64,000 bases of DNA. Origin: Actinomadura oligospora ATCC 43269. Lineage in GTDB: Bacteria; Actinomycetota; Actinomycetes; Streptosporangiales; Streptosporangiaceae. Under the pieces are notes generated by a model. That model saw only the letters and a program-made list of their open reading frames with translations. It ran no database searches and was not told the origin of the DNA. This document shows positions 31,434 to 39,110 of this stretch, in pieces. Both the position numbers and the translations under genes were made by a program. Position 1 is the first letter of the stretch. Each line of letters starts with the position of its first letter. The stretch covers positions 496,001 through 560,000 of the forward strand of contig NZ_JADG01000004.1 of NCBI RefSeq assembly GCF_000518265.1, written 5' to 3'.

Positions 31434-33464
31434 TCAGTCGCCGCGTTCCTCCTCGCGCCGGGCGAGCCGGGCGAGGCGGTCGTTGTAGGCGGCGAGCTCG
31501 TCGTCGGCCGCGGAGCGCTCGCCGCGCGCGGCGGCGCGGTCGGCCCGGCGGTCCTCCCGGCGGGCCCGGCGCTGGTCGTCGAAGAACCACTGGAAGGCCA
31601 GGAAGATCAGCACGATGAAGGTCGGGATCTCGCCGAAGCCCCAGGCGATCGCGCCGCCGGTGTGCTGGTCCTGGAGGATGGAGGTGCCCCAGTCCGGGTG
31701 GACGGCGGTGTACCAGGCGCGCGCGAGCGGCGCCCCGAGGTTCATCAGGGCGATGCCGAAGAACGCGTGGAACGGCATCGTGACGAACAGCAGGATCAGC
31801 CGTCCCGGGTAGGGCAGCTTGTGCGGCGCGGGGTCGACGCCGATCAGCACCCAGTAGAACAGCGACCCGGACAGCAGGAAGTGCGACATCATCGCGATGT
31901 GCCCGAGGTGGTTGCGCATCGCGGACTCGAACAGCGGCGTGAAGTACAGCGCGAACGTGGACGCCACGAAGATGATCGTGGCCACGCCCGGGTGCGCGAA
32001 GAACGACACGTACCGCGAGTGCAGCAGCGCCGTCAGCCACTCGCGCGGGCCCCGGTCCCCGCGCACCCTGGCGGGCTTCAGGGCGCGCAGCGCCAGCGTC
32101 ACCGGCGCGCCCACGACCAGGAAGATCGGGGTCAGCATGGACAGCACCATGTGCTGCACCATGTGGACGCTGAACAGGATCGGCGCGTACTTGGCGACGC
32201 CGGTCTCGGTCACCGCGACGATCGTCAGCAGCCCGACGAACCAGGACACCGTCCGGCCCATCGGCCAGGAGTCGCCGCGCCGCCGCAGCCGCAGGACGCC
32301 CGCGACGTACACGAAGCCGAGGACGATCACGAGCGCGGCGAAGAAGAAGTCGAACTGCCACAGCGTGGCGAGCCGCGCCGGGCCGACCTCGGGCGGGAGG
32401 TCGTAGCCGATCAGCGACTTGACCGTGCTCTCGATCTCCGAGGGCGCGGGCGGCGCGGTGCGCGCGAGCGCGACGGCCAGGCCCATGGCGGCGGCCATCA
32501 CGGCGGCCTCGACGGACGCGAACCTGGCGAACGCCCTTGCCTCGCCCTTCTCGATCCGGGTCAGCGTCCGCTCGCGGTGCCACCAGCCGAACCAGCCGAG
32601 GACGGCGAACGCGACGATCTTGCCGAGGGCGAGCCGTCCGTAGTCGGTGTCGAGCAGCTGGGCCGGGTCGGGCAGCCGGGCGATCACGTTGACCAGCCCG
32701 GACGCGCCGACGATCACGTAGCACCAGAGCGCCATCCGGCTGAACCGGGCGGCCATGACGCCGAGCCCGTCGCGTCCGGCGAGGGCGTGCGCGGCGAGGA
32801 TCGCGAGCCCGCCGACCCACGGCGCGACGGCCCCGACGTGCAGCGCGACGCCGGTCACCGCGACCGAGTGGTTCGCGGCGGACGCCGAGTGCCCGGTCAG
32901 CGGCGCGGGCAGCAGCGCGACGATCGCGAGCGCGAGCAGCCCGAACGCGGCGGCGGGCGTGGTCGTCGTCCGCGACAGCAGCGCGACCACGACCGTGATC
33001 AGCACGACCAGCATGAGGGCCGTGCCCTGCGGGAGCTGCCCGACGTACGAGCTGAGCTCGCTGCCGGTGACGATGTCGCCGACCGGCTGCCCGAGGACGT
33101 CCGAGACGGTGAACACCAGGTTCGCGGCGGCCGCGGCGGCCCAGAGCGCGGCCAGCCAGGACGCACCGCGCAGGTAGCCGAGCGCGGAGGCCGACAGCGA
33201 CGGCTTGCCGGAACCGCCCGCGCCGGTCATCGGCAGCAGCGCCGTGGCGGCGATCAGCGCGCCCACGGTCAGCGCGGCGGCCAGGTCCATGACCAGGCGG
33301 GAGAAGGGCAGGCCCCACCGGGTCAGCGCGCCCGCGTCCCCCAGCCCGGGGATGATCTTCTCGGTGACGGCGCCGCCGAGGACCAGCGCCGCGACGAGCA
33401 CGGCGACGGCCGCCACCAGGGCGGCCAGGGCCGCGCGGGCGACCCGGAGAGTGCTTGCGTTCAC
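31434..33464 (-). CDS. CopD/CtaG fusion: copper import and cytochrome c oxidase assembly protein
   Basis: 676 aa polytopic membrane protein. The first half (about 1-340, eight helices) is CopD-like, with a conserved HVGAVAPWVGGLA stretch; the second half (about 360-630) is the caa3-type CtaG domain (HMVQHMVLSMLTPIFLV, later HFLLSGSLFYW and PFHAFFGIALM), rich in His and Met that can carry copper. The last 60 residues are a charged cytoplasmic tail. It probably delivers copper to cytochrome oxidase. It follows copC by 6 bases, so the pair is one operon. Confidence 0.93.
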   Translation of the reverse strand: MNASTLRVARAALAALVAAVAVLVAALVLGGAVTEKIIPGLGDAGALTRWGLPFSRLVMDLAAALTVGALIAATALLPMTGAGGSGKPSLSASALGYLRGASWLAALWAAAAAANLVFTVSDVLGQPVGDIVTGSELSSYVGQLPQGTALMLVVLITVVVALLSRTTTTPAAAFGLLALAIVALLPAPLTGHSASAANHSVAVTGVALHVGAVAPWVGGLAILAAHALAGRDGLGVMAARFSRMALWCYVIVGASGLVNVIARLPDPAQLLDTDYGRLALGKIVAFAVLGWFGWWHRERTLTRIEKGEARAFARFASVEAAVMAAAMGLAVALARTAPPAPSEIESTVKSLIGYDLPPEVGPARLATLWQFDFFFAALVIVLGFVYVAGVLRLRRRGDSWPMGRTVSWFVGLLTIVAVTETGVAKYAPILFSVHMVQHMVLSMLTPIFLVVGAPVTLALRALKPARVRGDRGPREWLTALLHSRYVSFFAHPGVATIIFVASTFALYFTPLFESAMRNHLGHIAMMSHFLLSGSLFYWVLIGVDPAPHKLPYPGRLILLFVTMPFHAFFGIALMNLGAPLARAWYTAVHPDWGTSILQDQHTGGAIAWGFGEIPTFIVLIFLAFQWFFDDQRRARREDRRADRAAARGERSAADDELAAYNDRLARLARREEERGD

Positions 33465-33470
33465 GATCTC

Positions 33471-34076
33471 CTACTCACCGGAGGAGGGGTGCTTGCGCTT
33501 GGCGCGGGAGACGATCAGGACGCCGATGCCGATCCCGAGCAGCGCGCCGACACCGATCATCACCCAGCGGGCCGCGCCGTTCGAGGACTCCTTCGCCTCG
33601 GCCTTGGGCGAGCTCCGCACGCTCGCCCCCACGGGCGGGGTGCCCGGGGACGCGGCGTTCGGAGCGGCCGTCGGGGCGCCGCCGGTCGGCTGGGCGCCCA
33701 CGGCCGTGAAGGTCAGGTCGGAGCCCTCGATGCGGTGGCCGTCCGCGCCGACGACGGCGTAGGAGACGGTGTAGTCGCCGGACGGCAGCGGCCCGGTCAG
33801 CTTCTGCGTGACCTCGGCGCCGCCGCGCCGGGCGTCCCCGGCCTGGTACTCCTTGCCCGCCTTGTCCTTGACCAGGACCTTCGCGAAGCCGATCCGGTCG
33901 CTGAACACCAGCTTCACCTCGGTGACCGAGGCGGCGGTGGCGTTCTTGCCCGGGGTGCTGCCCACCAGGCGGGTGTGGGCCAGCGCCGGTGTGGTCAGCA
34001 GCGCGCCGAACGCCGTCGTCAGCACCGTGACCAGCGCGGCGAGCAGGCCGAGCCGGCGCGGGATGGAGGTCTTCAT
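33471..34076 (-). CDS. CopC-domain copper-binding protein, membrane-anchored
   Basis: 201 aa. Sec signal ending TTPALA-HT, so the mature protein begins with the histidine that in CopC proteins forms part of the Cu(II) brace. The CopC beta-barrel follows (LVGSTPGKNATAASVTEVKL, later SYAVVGADGHRIEGSDLTF, with the second conserved His). A Pro/Ala linker and a C-terminal membrane helix (about 170-190) anchor it outside the cell. ATG at 34076 is chosen so that the signal peptide is N-terminal; the frame could start at 34124. It passes copper to the CopD/CtaG protein encoded next. Confidence 0.92.
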   Translation of the reverse strand: MKTSIPRRLGLLAALVTVLTTAFGALLTTPALAHTRLVGSTPGKNATAASVTEVKLVFSDRIGFAKVLVKDKAGKEYQAGDARRGGAEVTQKLTGPLPSGDYTVSYAVVGADGHRIEGSDLTFTAVGAQPTGGAPTAAPNAASPGTPPVGASVRSSPKAEAKESSNGAARWVMIGVGALLGIGIGVLIVSRAKRKHPSSGE

Positions 34077-34150
34077 GGCGGGACCGGAGTTCTCCAGAGT
34101 CGAATCGATATGAGCCTCCACCACCCTACTGACGCTCCGCGATGGCCGTG

Positions 34151-34240: not shown

Positions 34241-35929
34241 TCAGACGGTGCCGAGGACGTGGGCGCGGCCGTGGCGGGCGAACTCGGCGCGGACGGCCTC
34301 GGCGGTCGCGGCGTCCAGGGGCTCGTAGGCCAGGTCCCGGCCCGGACGCCACCAGACGCCGCCGCTCGCGTCCGCAGCGCCGCCCGTGCCTGCGGGGCCG
34401 TCCCAGCGTTGGCGGCGGAGGGGCCGCTTGTCGACCTTGCCGGTCGCGGTGAGGGACATGGCCGGGACGATCCGGACGAACTTCGGGGCCCACTTCGTCC
34501 CCAGGTCGGGCTGGGCGGCGAGGAAGGCGGCGAAGGCGTCCGGCTCGAAGGGGCGTCCGTCCGCCAGTTCGAGGGCGGCCATGACCTGGTCGCCCGTCCG
34601 GGGGTCGGGGACGGGGTAGACGGCGCACATGACGACCGGGTCCCAGCGGGCCAGGACGCGTTCGACCGGCGCGGCGGCGAAGTTCTCGCTGTCCACGCGG
34701 AGCCGGTCGGCGGTCCGTCCGGCGAAGTAGAGGTAGCCGCCCGCGTCGCGGTAGCCGAGGTCCCCGCTCCAGTAGAGGCCGTCGCGGACGCGCTCGGCGT
34801 CGGCCTCGGGGTTGTTGTAGTAGCCCTCGAAGGACGCGGCGACGTTGAGGCCGACGAGCTCGCCGATGGCGTCGTCCGGGTTGCGCAGGGTGCCGTCCGG
34901 GGCGAACCGGGCGGGCGGGCACTCCGCGCCGGTCCCGGGGTCCAGGACGGCGACCTCGATGCCCGGCCGCGGCACGCCCAGGGCGTCCGGCGGGGTGCCC
35001 GGGACCTTGTGGATCGCGATCGCGCCCTCGCTGGAGCCGTACCCCTCGATGATCCGGCAGCCGAAGCGCGCGCCGAACCGGGCCATGTCCTGGGCGGACG
35101 CCTCGGTGCCGAACGCGGAGACCAGCGTGTTCTCGGCGTCGTCCGGGCGTTCGGGGGTGGCCAGGACGTAGGCCAGGGCGCGTCCGACGTAGTTGAAGTA
35201 GGTGACGCCGTACCTGCGGACGTCCGGGAGGAAGCCGGACGCGGAGAACCGGCGGCGCAACGCGACCGCCGCGCCCTCGTGGACGGCCATCGCGAGGTTC
35301 GCCATGACCGAGTTGCCGTGGAAGAGCGGCATCGCCGCGTAGGTGACCGAGTCGGGTCCGATCCCCATGTTGGACGCGTTGGCCCCGATGTCCGCGAGTC
35401 GTCCCTGCCCGCACGAGACGGCCTTCGGCGCGCCCGTCGAGCCGGACGTGAACAGCAGGAGCAACCGGTCGGACGGGTCGGCGGGCTTCACCGCCTCGTC
35501 CTCGTCCGCGCCCGCGGGAAGCGCGTCCCGGTAGGCGGCGGAGTCGACGCGGTGGACGGGGACGCCGAGGTCCAGGCCGTCCAGCAGCGGGGCGTGCGCG
35601 GCGTCGGTGATGATCAGGTCGCAGTCGGTGTGCCGGATGTCGGCGGCGAGCCCGGCGCCGCGCCGGGTCGGGTTGATCCCGACGAGGGTGCAGCCCGCGA
35701 GCGCGGCGGCCCCGATCCAGAACACGAACTCGGGGACGTTCTCCAGCAGCACGCCGACGTGCCGGGCGCGGCCGTCCGGGGCCGGGCGGAGGCCCGTCGT
35801 CCAGGCCGCCCGGGCGCGGGCCGCCCGGACCACCTCGTCCCAGGTGTACGCGTCGTCCTCGAAGAGCAGGCCCCGGCGGGGGTCCCCGGACCGCGCGAGC
35901 AGCGTCTCGGCGAAGGTCGCGTGCGGCAC
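34241..35929 (-). CDS. Acyl-CoA synthetase, FadD17-like
   Basis: Adenylate-forming enzyme, 562 aa, that activates a carboxylic acid to its CoA thioester. Motifs: P-loop FTSGSTGAPKAVS near 165, EGYGSSEGAI, and YWSGDLGYRD with the conserved Asp; the C-terminal catalytic Lys is expected in TATGKVDKRPL. Overall pattern fits mycobacterial FadD17 (steroid or long-chain acid activation), as I recall it, but the substrate is not fixed by sequence. GTG start at 35929. A perfect 18-bp palindrome lies 15-32 bases upstream of that codon, so expression is probably repressed by a TetR protein encoded elsewhere. Confidence 0.9.
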   Translation of the reverse strand: MPHATFAETLLARSGDPRRGLLFEDDAYTWDEVVRAARARAAWTTGLRPAPDGRARHVGVLLENVPEFVFWIGAAALAGCTLVGINPTRRGAGLAADIRHTDCDLIITDAAHAPLLDGLDLGVPVHRVDSAAYRDALPAGADEDEAVKPADPSDRLLLLFTSGSTGAPKAVSCGQGRLADIGANASNMGIGPDSVTYAAMPLFHGNSVMANLAMAVHEGAAVALRRRFSASGFLPDVRRYGVTYFNYVGRALAYVLATPERPDDAENTLVSAFGTEASAQDMARFGARFGCRIIEGYGSSEGAIAIHKVPGTPPDALGVPRPGIEVAVLDPGTGAECPPARFAPDGTLRNPDDAIGELVGLNVAASFEGYYNNPEADAERVRDGLYWSGDLGYRDAGGYLYFAGRTADRLRVDSENFAAAPVERVLARWDPVVMCAVYPVPDPRTGDQVMAALELADGRPFEPDAFAAFLAAQPDLGTKWAPKFVRIVPAMSLTATGKVDKRPLRRQRWDGPAGTGGAADASGGVWWRPGRDLAYEPLDAATAEAVRAEFARHGRAHVLGTV

Positions 35930-35989: not shown

Positions 35990-37423
35990 TCACCCGCAGT
36001 CGCAGCACCCGCAGTCGCAGTCACAGCCGCAACACCCGTCGTCACAGCAGTTGCAGCAGTCGCCGCAGCCGCCGCAGCCCGAGCAGTCGCAGTTGTCACA
36101 GCAGTGCCGGGTGCACCAGCAGCGTTCCTCGCACGGATGGCCCGCGTACTCGGCCCACTCCGGCTGGAACACCCCGCAGGTCACGCAGACGAGCGTCCCG
36201 GTGAAGCAGGGGATCGGCAAGCCCGGACGCGGCGGCTTCGGCTTGTGCCTGCCGCGCCCGAACCCCGCGCCTCCGGGGAACCAGCCGCCCCCGCCTCCCC
36301 CGCCGCCACCGTGCGGCGGCTGGCCGGGCGGCGGGCCGTACCCCTGGCCGAAGCCCGGCTGCGGCGCCTGGCCGGGGTACTGAGCCTGCGGGTACTGCTG
36401 CGGATACTGCTGCCCCTGCGGGTACGGCTGCTGTCCGCCGGGCGGCGGGTACTGGCCGGGCGGCGGGGGCGGGTACTGACCGTGGACGGACTCCGGGCCC
36501 TTCTGCGGGGCCTTCTGTGGGTCCTTGTGCGGGACCTTGCACGAGCGGGCGTGCTTGCGCCGCGCCTCGGGGTACGGGTCGAAGACGCTGTCGACCGTGC
36601 GCCCGATCTCCCGGTTCAGCAGGGCCCGGACGAGCTGCGGCTTCTCCATCTCGACGTCCGCCAGGGCCAGCCGCAGGCCGCGCAGGGCGTCGTCGCAGAC
36701 GCGGCGCGCCTCGGCCGGGGACGTCCCGGTCGCGAGCAGCGGGTTGAACGCGCCGGTGGCGGCGTCCTCGCCGATGTCCTCGACGGCGTCGATCAGGTGC
36801 GCGAGACGTCCGAAGAAGCGTCCCGCCTCCGACAGCGCCTCGGCGTTGCCCTCGCGACCGGCGATGACGGCCGTGTGCGCGAACACCGCGGCGGTCGCGG
36901 TCTCGGTGGGCTCGGTCAGCTCCAGCAGCCCGAGCCCGGCCGCGCGCTCCAGCTCGGGCTGGCGGGCGACGGCGTCGCGCAGCACGGACGGATCGAACCC
37001 GACCGCCGCGCCGGTCCGCCCGCCCGCCTCGTCCCAGCGGTCGGCCATCCGGGACGCCGCCGCCGCGACCAGGCGGCGCGCGTACGGGCCGTCCCCGTCC
37101 GCCACGTGGTCACGGGTCTTGCCCGCCGCGAGCAGCAGGGACGCGGCGGCGGCCAGCCGCGCGCCCTCCGCCTGCGCCCGCACGACCCGCGCGCCCCGCA
37201 TCCCGCGCAGCGCGCACGGACCGGCGGCGCGGCGGGGCGAGGTCTCCGGGGCCTGCGCCTCGACCAGCACCGAGACGATCAGCCCGTCGTAGTTGGTGAC
37301 GACGCGGGCGGCCTGGCCGTGCTCGCGCCGCAGGGTCAGGCACAGCCCGCACAGGTGCGCCATCCAGTCCTCGAACAGCCTGCCCCGCAGCACATGACGA
37401 CAGGGCCGCACCACACCGAACAT
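35990..37423 (-). CDS. DUF5685 family protein with cysteine-rich C-terminal tail
   Basis: 477 aa. The family start MFGVVRPCRHVL is seen, then HLCGLCLTLRREHG and NYDGLIVSVLVEAQ. The central all-helical domain ends in HLIDAVEDIGEDAATGAFNPL, an acidic patch like those of isoprenoid-synthase folds; this resemblance is only suggestive. After about residue 290 there is a low-complexity Pro/Gln/Tyr/Gly linker, then about 80 residues with some 27 cysteines among Gly and Asp, a likely metal-binding tail. ATG at 37423 (GAGG upstream) matches the family start; the frame runs to 37507. Function unknown. Confidence 0.85.
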   Translation of the reverse strand: MFGVVRPCRHVLRGRLFEDWMAHLCGLCLTLRREHGQAARVVTNYDGLIVSVLVEAQAPETSPRRAAGPCALRGMRGARVVRAQAEGARLAAAASLLLAAGKTRDHVADGDGPYARRLVAAAASRMADRWDEAGGRTGAAVGFDPSVLRDAVARQPELERAAGLGLLELTEPTETATAAVFAHTAVIAGREGNAEALSEAGRFFGRLAHLIDAVEDIGEDAATGAFNPLLATGTSPAEARRVCDDALRGLRLALADVEMEKPQLVRALLNREIGRTVDSVFDPYPEARRKHARSCKVPHKDPQKAPQKGPESVHGQYPPPPPGQYPPPGGQQPYPQGQQYPQQYPQAQYPGQAPQPGFGQGYGPPPGQPPHGGGGGGGGGWFPGGAGFGRGRHKPKPPRPGLPIPCFTGTLVCVTCGVFQPEWAEYAGHPCEERCWCTRHCCDNCDCSGCGGCGDCCNCCDDGCCGCDCDCGCCDCG

Positions 37424-37556: not shown

Positions 37557-38879
37557 TCAGACTCCGGCGCAGGCCAGCGCGCGCCCGTAGGCGGCGATCC
37601 GGTCGTCGTCCGGGGAGCCGTTCTCGGCGAGCAGCTCGGCGAGGTCGAACCAGGTCTGCGCGGCCTGCCGGGACGACTCCATCCGCTCCAGGCAGGACGC
37701 CGCCCGGGCCAGCGACGCGGTCGCCCGCCCCCGCTCCCCCAGCCGGACGCACGCCTCGCCGAGGACGGTCAGCGCGACCGCCGTGGCCCGGCGCGGCGCG
37801 TCCCCGAGCAGGTCGAGGGCCTCCTCGGCGCGGGCGACGGCCTCCGCCGGACGGCCCGTCGCGGTCTCGGCGCGGGCCAGCTCGGTCAGGCACCACGCCA
37901 CGTCCAGCTCCCCGGCGGCGCTGGCGTTGATCTCGCCGCGCACCCGGGCGAGCAGGTCGCGGGCGCGTCCGGCCTGGTCGGGACGCGCGCGCAGGAGCAG
38001 CCCGGCGTAGTTGACCCGCAGCCGGGCCAGGTTGCGCAGGTCGCCGTCCGGCGCGCCGTCGGTCTCGCCGAACTCCCCGGCGATCTGCAGCGCGCGCTCG
38101 GCCAGCTCGACGCCCTCCTCGTAGGCGCCGCGCACCTCGGCGACGAACGCGGCCTCCCAGTACGCGGCGACCCGCGCGGCCGGGCCCGCGCCGCGGTCGG
38201 CGCGCTCGACCAGCTGCGCGGCGAGCTGACGCGCGCGCACGAGGTCGCCGCGCTCGATGAACGCCGCCAGCAGCGCGGCCCCCAGGTGGACGGCCGAGTC
38301 GGTGGTGTCGGCGCCGGTCGCGGCGAGCTGGCGCAGCGCGTCCTCGGCGACGCGGACGCCCTCGCTGATGTCGCCGCGCTCGCGCAGGCACCGGCTCAGC
38401 GCGACGTGCACGCGGGTCCACTGGTCGGGGTCGTGCTCGGCGGACGCCTTGCCGCTCAGCGCGCGCAGCTCCCCGATGGCCTGCTCCAGGTCGCCGGACG
38501 CCTCCAGCGCCAGCGCGTGGCCCCACCGGGCCTGGTGCAGCATGTCCGGCAGGGCGACCGCGTCCGGGCTGGCGAGGACGTCGGCGAACCGGGCGCGGGC
38601 CTCGGCCGCGGCGCCGTTGCGCAGCGCGATCTCGGCGTAGTCCAGGGTGACCCGCAGCTCGTCCACCACGTCCTCGCCGACCCCGCTGACCAGGTACGTC
38701 GGCGAGCAGCTCAGCTTGGTCGCGAGCAGGTCCACCACGCTCGGCGCGGGCACCCGCTTGTCGCTCTCGATCAGCGAGATGTAGCTGTCGGACAGCTCGG
38801 GGTACGCGAGCTGGGCCTGGCTCATGCCCTGCCGGATGCGCAGCGCCCGGATCCGCTGCCCCAGTGTCTCCCGATCCAT
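37557..38879 (-). CDS. XRE-family regulator with TPR-like repeats
   Basis: 440 aa. Helix-turn-helix at residues 5-60 (LGQRIRALRIRQGMSQAQLA, then LSDSYISLIESDKRVPAPSVVDLLA), followed by about 360 residues of helical TPR-type repeats (e.g. ARFADVLASPDAVALPDMLH, then VHVALSRCLRERGDISEG). Such proteins are usually peptide- or signal-responsive regulators. ATG at 38879; the upstream extension of the frame is not supported. It is 133 bases upstream of the DUF5685 gene on the same strand, with the overlapping palindromes between, so it is the natural candidate to bind them. Confidence 0.88.
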   Translation of the reverse strand: MDRETLGQRIRALRIRQGMSQAQLAYPELSDSYISLIESDKRVPAPSVVDLLATKLSCSPTYLVSGVGEDVVDELRVTLDYAEIALRNGAAAEARARFADVLASPDAVALPDMLHQARWGHALALEASGDLEQAIGELRALSGKASAEHDPDQWTRVHVALSRCLRERGDISEGVRVAEDALRQLAATGADTTDSAVHLGAALLAAFIERGDLVRARQLAAQLVERADRGAGPAARVAAYWEAAFVAEVRGAYEEGVELAERALQIAGEFGETDGAPDGDLRNLARLRVNYAGLLLRARPDQAGRARDLLARVRGEINASAAGELDVAWCLTELARAETATGRPAEAVARAEEALDLLGDAPRRATAVALTVLGEACVRLGERGRATASLARAASCLERMESSRQAAQTWFDLAELLAENGSPDDDRIAAYGRALACAGV

Positions 38880-39110
38880 GTTCGAACCACCCGCCTGCCA
38901 GGTCCCCCCCGCGCCGTGCGCCGCACGTCGCATGGGAAGAAAACGTGTCGATCTTCCAGTCTGCCCGGATCGCGCCCGGTCAGGGTCCGGATTCAACGGA
39001 TCCGGACCCTCCCGTTCCGCCTCACGGCAGGCTATAGCGGACACCCCCCTCCGCGCCGCCCCCGCGCGCCCCCTCGGCCGGACGCCCCGGCTCCTGCTGT
39101 ACTAGCGGTC

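Follow-up and report, generated by a model that had tools for sequence, protein, structure and literature searches.

The DUF5685 domain of Actinomadura oligospora, its predicted isoprenoid-synthase fold and its pairing with a Cys-rich C-terminus

The DUF5685 locus of A. oligospora

The window analysed here is a stretch of 64,000 nucleotides of the genome of A. oligospora ATCC 43269 (contig NZ_JADG01000004.1, positions 496,001 to 560,000). On its minus strand it carries a gene of the DUF5685 family (PF18937), located between a regulator gene on the upstream side and an acyl-CoA ligase gene and copper-related genes on the downstream side. The genes and the parts of the DUF5685 gene are as follows.

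37557-39044, minus strand: XRE/TPR regulator gene, upstream; a neighbour in Actinomadura only
35990-37423, minus strand: DUF5685 gene, 477 amino acids from the conserved MFG start
36572-37423, minus strand: DUF5685 domain, residues 1-284, predicted trans-isoprenyl-diphosphate-synthase fold
37400-37402, minus strand: C8, present in 65 of 65 ungapped actinomycete rows
37340-37351, minus strand: CGLC, residues 25-28, present in 67 of 67 actinomycete and 6 of 6 Coriobacteriia sequences
37214-37216, minus strand: C70, present in the same 67 of 67 and 6 of 6
37091-37111, minus strand: first Asp-rich motif, DHVADGD, residues 105-111; D105 and D109 invariant
36764-36790, minus strand: second Asp-rich motif, DAVEDIGED, residues 212-220; D212, A213 and D220 invariant, D216 in 66 of 67
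36251-36571, minus strand: linker, Pro/Gln/Tyr and then Gly-rich; its length varies, and some homologues, such as that of L007 (348 amino acids), lack it
36155-36217, minus strand: semi-conserved hydrophobic Cys segment PIPCFTGTLVCVTCGVFQPEW with a C...PxW motif; low-confidence in the structural model
35993-36154, minus strand: hypervariable Cys/Asp/Gly tail with a CxCxC-type terminus
34241-35929, minus strand: AMP-dependent acyl-CoA ligase gene, downstream; a neighbour in a minority of Actinomadura loci
33471-34124, minus strand: copC; a neighbour in Actinomadura only
31434-33464, minus strand: CopD/CtaG fusion gene; a neighbour in Actinomadura only

The open frame of the DUF5685 gene is uninterrupted from 37507 down to 35990 (minus strand, 505 amino acids). 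As DUF5685 homologues begin with MFG or VFG, the start is probably at 37423, giving the 477-residue protein. Its membership of PF18937 is firm: the sequence scores 86.6 bits against a gathering cut-off of 26.7 (E 2.4e-24), and the family invariants CGLC, D46, C70, the Asp motifs and NP are all present. Pfam names no function for this family, and its name conveys none of the features described below (a predicted fold, a Cys-rich tail and a partnership with a J-protein).

The original prediction put the number of Cys among the final 80 residues at about 27. The tail is real, and the exact count is 24, with 18 in the last 40 residues and 30 over the full 505-residue frame. The Pro/Gln/Tyr linker described as joining it to the domain is likewise present, followed by a Gly-rich and then a basic part (KPKPPRPG). 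The densest stretch of 60 residues in the tail contains 21 Cys, and the runner-up among all six-frame open reading frames of the window contains 9. Third-position G+C amounts to 0.91 in the tail and 0.96 in the domain, the codon pattern of a translated sequence. A search of the 9.35-Mb genome with a Cys-rich DNA pattern revealed no second Cys-rich protein of this kind, the sole match being a short-period repeat.

The copC gene, noted at about 2 kb, indeed lies 1.9 kb downstream (33471-34124). Among 69 DUF5685 loci, copC is found downstream in 16 and copD/ctaG in 18, all of them from Actinomadura, and the acyl-CoA ligase gene stands between DUF5685 and copC in a minority of the Actinomadura loci. 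Because this adjacency is restricted to Actinomadura, the link to copper is weak, and with 16 of 69 loci and none outside the genus, copC is ruled out as a general functional partner. No metal gene recurs near DUF5685 outside Actinomadura in the 69 loci, no neighbour conserved across actinomycete genera was found, and no prenylation-linked gene appeared as a recurrent neighbour of DUF5685. An acyl-CoA dehydrogenase-like gene is common to the Streptomyces loci, and the XRE/TPR gene to those of Actinomadura. The acyl-CoA ligase of the window resembles steroid-22-oyl-CoA synthetase, with a score of 651.7 bits that falls short of the cut-off of 900.

A Cys-rich C-terminus, fused to the domain or on a partner protein

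Members of the DUF5685 family are known from across Actinomycetota, from Clostridia and from Thermotoga maritima. Of the genomes sampled, 42 of 60 in the genus and 85 of 121 in the order encode one. When a tail is defined as 8 or more Cys among the final 60 residues, 138 of 140 distinct actinomycete DUF5685 proteins possess one (median 19 Cys per last 60 residues), in genera including Actinomadura, Streptomyces, Nonomuraea, Amycolatopsis and Nocardia. The two remaining cases are a locus cut at the edge of its stretch, the full copy of which is tailed, and a broken frame in L129. The tail, initially regarded as an unusual feature, is thus the rule among these proteins, and the absence from close homologues that would have spoken against it was not observed.

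The linker may be missing altogether or exceed 100 residues in length. Three parts can be distinguished in the tail: first a basic/Pro stretch, next a short segment that is hydrophobic, contains Cys and leads into PxW, and finally an end made of Cys, Asp and Gly. The C...PxW segment is found in 122 of the 138 homologues, as PIPCFTGTLVCVTCGVFQPEW in Actinomadura and as LIAGCLVWTGLCCTCQVCC in Streptomyces. In 69 non-redundant sequences (less than 85% alike in the DUF5685 domain), a CxC lies within the last five residues of 61 tails, Cys occupies positions -1, -3 and -5 in 61, 77 and 81% and positions -2 and -4 in about 30%, and CxC and CxxC are enriched while CCC is depleted (29 seen against 113 expected in shuffles), all of these spacing and end-position counts being inflated by sequence relatedness. 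Between the Cys stand mostly Asp, Gly, Ser, Glu and Asn, and aliphatic and aromatic residues are scarce. Cys is conserved no better than the other tail residues in ungapped pairs (45 versus 58%), which indicates that the tail is constrained in composition and in its end motif, not by position.

No known Cys-rich domain was detected in the tail, neither by Pfam, even at E 10, nor in the PDB, although low-complexity queries are easily missed by such searches. A membrane-spanning anchor was considered and rejected, since the median 17-residue Kyte-Doolittle peak of 1.65 owes to Cys scoring as hydrophobic; if Cys is scored 0 instead, hardly any tails pass 1.6. Tandem DUF5685 copies with differing tails were observed in two Crossiella genomes and in two other genomes (L141:3240-5600, L142:8001-10367, L088:4001-6400 and L089:3998-6561), and the 69-kb Nocardia plasmid pPE-7 encodes a DUF5685 protein with a short Cys/Asp tail (L254:4001-5008).

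Six DUF5685 proteins from Coriobacteriia have no tail. In four of the six genomes, the DUF5685 gene is followed by a J-domain gene and then by DnaK, and the C-termini of these J-proteins are Cys-rich (LICCGIWCCGPTLCRFIGF, LLCCSMWLCGPTLCRMFCTPFYW, LCCLCCCAQYGCMMLPRFCIGF). Within these four genomes, the DUF5685-adjacent J-proteins contain 5-7 Cys in their last 30 residues (n=4) and the others 0-2 (n=16). The two genomes without this adjacency each encode one Cys-tailed J-protein elsewhere (8 Cys; ending in LCCCAVCGPTLCQPFLCCL), and none was found in four DUF5685-free genomes related to them at genus or family level. The members of this Cys-tailed J-domain family are listed below; DnaK adjoins in four genomes.

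L058:3821-4618: Cys-tailed J-domain gene
L059:3119-3895: Cys-tailed J-domain gene
L060:3163-3969: Cys-tailed J-domain gene
L061:3080-3856: Cys-tailed J-domain gene
L289 and L290: further members of the family

DUF5685 and the Cys-tailed J-protein are found in the same 6 of 59 Coriobacteriia genomes and nowhere else. This co-occurrence would have a probability of 2e-8 if the genomes were independent, which they are not, as they belong to four genera; moreover, the J-protein profile was built from those six and matches them by construction, so that the 53 absences constitute the test.

A similar arrangement was encountered in Clostridia-type loci, which came from collections of plasmids and phages (Pusillibacter, L249; Subdoligranulum, L250; and two gut contigs, L251 and L252). 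In all four of these loci with an intact DUF5685 gene, a J-protein gene directly follows, its product having 5-9 Cys in the last 30 residues (for example SCCTQMLCLNLLCNCCCCGGGF). The partner J-protein tails are short and hydrophobic, often with CCC runs such as CNCCCC. A diverged DUF5685-like protein (L253:4001-4870), in which CGLC has become RGVQ and part of the second Asp motif is lost, has no J-gene beside it. In A. oligospora and 20 relatives, a search for a Cys-tailed J-protein returned just ordinary J domains, with matches ending by position 152 of 261. No relative was found on viral contigs. The entries labelled 'Bacteriophage sp.' (MT835850, MT835652 and MT836096, corresponding to L251, L252 and L253) look like bacterial gut contigs, judged by eye from J-domain, elongation-factor-P-like and glucosamine-synthase-like frames.

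The DUF5685 domain and a Cys-rich C-terminus are therefore paired, whether within one protein or across two. The constancy of this pairing suggests that the tail is likely a substrate or ligand of the domain, not an ornament. It would be very improbable, in our estimate, that the tail is a low-complexity expansion generated by repeat slippage and tolerated without a specific job. Its hypervariable length and sequence, and Cys that in ungapped pairs are conserved no better than their neighbours, would suit such an origin, but a tail in 138 of 140 homologues across many genera, the positionally conserved CxCxC end, the conserved PxW segment and a trans counterpart that co-occurs exactly with the domain all argue against it.

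The same observations bear on the initial proposal of a metallothionein-like or structural metal tail. Metallothionein-like traits of the tail are a Cys density of about 40% and the presence of CxC, CC and CxxC. Its terminal part shows metallothionein spacing (CxC/CxxC/CC, few aromatics), and the depletion of CCC, the polar fillers, a possible Zn site in the domain (see below) and, in Actinomadura, copC/copD close by add to the case for a metallothionein-like sink or metal-loading arm for Zn2+ or Cu+, with a domain that may itself use the metal or may sit at the membrane and buffer it. On the other hand, copC is not found near the gene outside Actinomadura, the tail has no Pfam or PDB match, and the J-protein tails, being short, hydrophobic and rich in CCC runs, are unlike metallothioneins, as is the fusion of the tail to a predicted enzyme fold. 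What stands of the proposal is thus a genuine, conserved tail with ligand-like spacing; what does not is the link to copC, confined to one genus, with no metal gene to replace it elsewhere. Since the trans tail is hydrophobic, often contains CCC and belongs to an adjacent or co-occurring J-protein, a substrate or partner tail fits at least as well as a metallothionein, and we hold metal binding to be a possible but tentative explanation, the chief competitor of the one ranked first below.

Predicted fold and candidate active site of the domain

An AlphaFold2 model of residues 1-284, built on an alignment of 67 sequences, was obtained with a pLDDT of 92.6 and a pTM of 0.91. In a Foldseek search against the PDB, the best match is the prenyltransferase MoeN5 (E 2.4e-4), with polyprenyl synthases also top-ranked. 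Structural alignment with VIA-align gave a Z of 21.8 and an rmsd of 2.7 over 242 residues to the polyprenyl synthase 4jxy; all 50 structures listed, for which Z lies at 19.4-21.8 and the match spans residues 8-281, either are prenyl-diphosphate synthases or bear the title of an isoprenoid synthase. A Z of about 21 is well above background, because helical proteins without a clear match typically reach a best Z of about 14. The domain is thus strongly predicted to adopt an all-alpha trans-isoprenyl-diphosphate-synthase (trans-IDS) fold throughout.

The sequence agrees weakly with this predicted fold. A mixed DUF5685 profile aligned by hhalign to actinomycete PF00348 proteins gives E 0.0026, with D212 and D216 on the second DDxxD, compared with E 0.0011 for PF00348 against PF00494, two accepted families of the same fold. 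The window protein has no PF00348 profile match at E 0.001, and membership of PF00348 fails both on the profile and on the residues that bind isopentenyl diphosphate (IPP); the fold assignment is that of a prediction. Direct homology to squalene/phytoene synthases was rejected, the profile E values of 0.18-0.23 being weaker than those to PF00348. A sequence search with the whole protein against the PDB yielded just a chance match to the linker. The A. oligospora genome contains four PF00348 genes and no SQS_PSY (PF00494) gene was found in it; all 12 sampled genomes of the genus have 2-5 PF00494 genes.

From Coriobacteriia to Actinomycetia, C25, C28, D46, C70, D105, D109, D212, D216, D220, N227 and P228 are among the residues that are invariant or nearly so. 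The first Asp-rich motif reads DHxxD in the window protein and, in Coriobacteriia, DDxxD (4/6) or DNxxD (2/6). C8 of Actinomycetia is replaced by H73 in Coriobacteriia; with either residue, C25, C28 and C70 plausibly form a putative Zn site.

Like the trans-isoprenyl diphosphate synthases, DUF5685 has DxxxD at both expected places. Unlike them, it carries CGLC and an added Cys tail, and most of the IPP-binding positions are lost: Q37 stands for the Lys of GKxxR (GxxxR being found at residues 36-40 in most members), P172 for the Lys of KT, H209 for Gln and A213 for the second Asp of motif 2, with P172, H209 and A213 placed by a weak profile alignment and Q37 by eye through motif matching. The Gln preceding motif 2 is absent altogether, its position being occupied by H209 in 67 of 67 actinomycete sequences and by Tyr in 6 of 6 from Coriobacteriia. 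With these residues missing, a standard chain-elongating synthase is unlikely, and the domain may be a pseudoenzyme.

The tail might then be a structural or redox module regulating a catalytically dead isoprenoid-synthase-fold protein, for instance a redox sensor for Hsp70 and its J-protein, by docking on the domain, forming disulfides or sharing a Zn or Fe-S site with CGLC and C70. Such a role would accord with the invariant CxxC and C70, the lost IPP-binding residues, the J-protein and DnaK partners in Coriobacteriia and the diverged L253, which lacks both the CxxC and a J-gene. We nevertheless consider it unlikely, as the tail varies greatly among homologues and is modelled without structure (pLDDT 40-48), unlike a docked module, and conservation of both Asp motifs argues for a site that is in use.

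Prenyl donor and tail lipidation as the first-ranked proposal

The trans-IDS-like enzymes ComQ and PalQ attach a prenyl group to the tail of a peptide whose gene adjoins their own (PMC10853753, PMC5331326, PMC13290415), and Rab geranylgeranyl transferase classically acts on C-termini with two Cys, such as CXCX, CCXX and XXCC (PMC13290415). Because the predicted fold points to prenyl diphosphates, and in view of these two precedents, we place lipidation or tethering of the tail first. By analogy with PalQ and ComQ, which act on Trp, the domain would bind a prenyl donor and modify or anchor the tail, a reading to which we assign a probability of roughly 0.35.

In the proposed mechanism, a divergent domain of trans-IDS fold would work with a Cys-rich C-terminal tail, which in Actinomycetia would be presented in cis through the flexible linker and in Clostridia and Coriobacteriia would form the C-terminal end of another polypeptide, a J-domain protein that is usually encoded in the same operon and, in Coriobacteriia, next to DnaK. 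A prenyl (di)phosphate would be held by the two Asp-rich motifs and Mg2+, and the lipid would be put on one or a few Cys near the tail end, or the tail would be held so as to be lipid-anchored. The outcome would be a membrane tether for the protein itself or for a J-protein/Hsp70 machine.

The tight terminal CxCxC and the hydrophobic J-protein tails fit C-terminal lipidation. Against it stand the roughly 20 Cys in an acidic, hydrophilic tail, far above what a lipid anchor needs, and the CxC/CxxC spacing, which resembles that of metal ligands. DUF5685 shares with ComQ, PalQ and ChrPC the predicted superfamily fold and a divergent second Asp motif. All characterised trans-IDS-like protein prenyltransferases, however, act on Trp and keep the Gln before motif 2 (PMC13290415), while DUF5685 has His or Tyr at that position and Cys as candidate acceptors. 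That DUF5685 would be a trans-IDS-like S-prenyltransferase on Cys-rich C-termini, acting on the J-protein in trans and on its own tail in cis, seems doubtful to us; if true, it would be the first known Cys-acting enzyme of trans-IDS fold and would mirror, in prokaryotes, both CxC prenylation of the Rab type and the cysteine string protein. In the latter (eukaryotic DNAJC5), the Cys domain is palmitoylated (PMC10903463). DNAJC5 and the DUF5685-paired J-proteins have in common a J domain and a Cys-rich region, lipidated in DNAJC5; the bacterial Cys tail differs in its location at the very end, and the likeness is one of J domain and layout.

No published description of the DUF5685 fold, its tail or its pairing with a J-protein was found in a search that left most subscription journals outside. 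With a predicted fold, candidate active-site residues and a fixed Cys-rich partner, the question of whether DUF5685 is an enzyme becomes accessible to direct testing. Should the tail bind metal, the protein would be a metallothionein fused to an isoprenoid-synthase fold, for which we found no earlier report. If the domain lipidates the tail, the pair would represent a bacterial cysteine-prenylation system with a fold different from the eukaryotic one.
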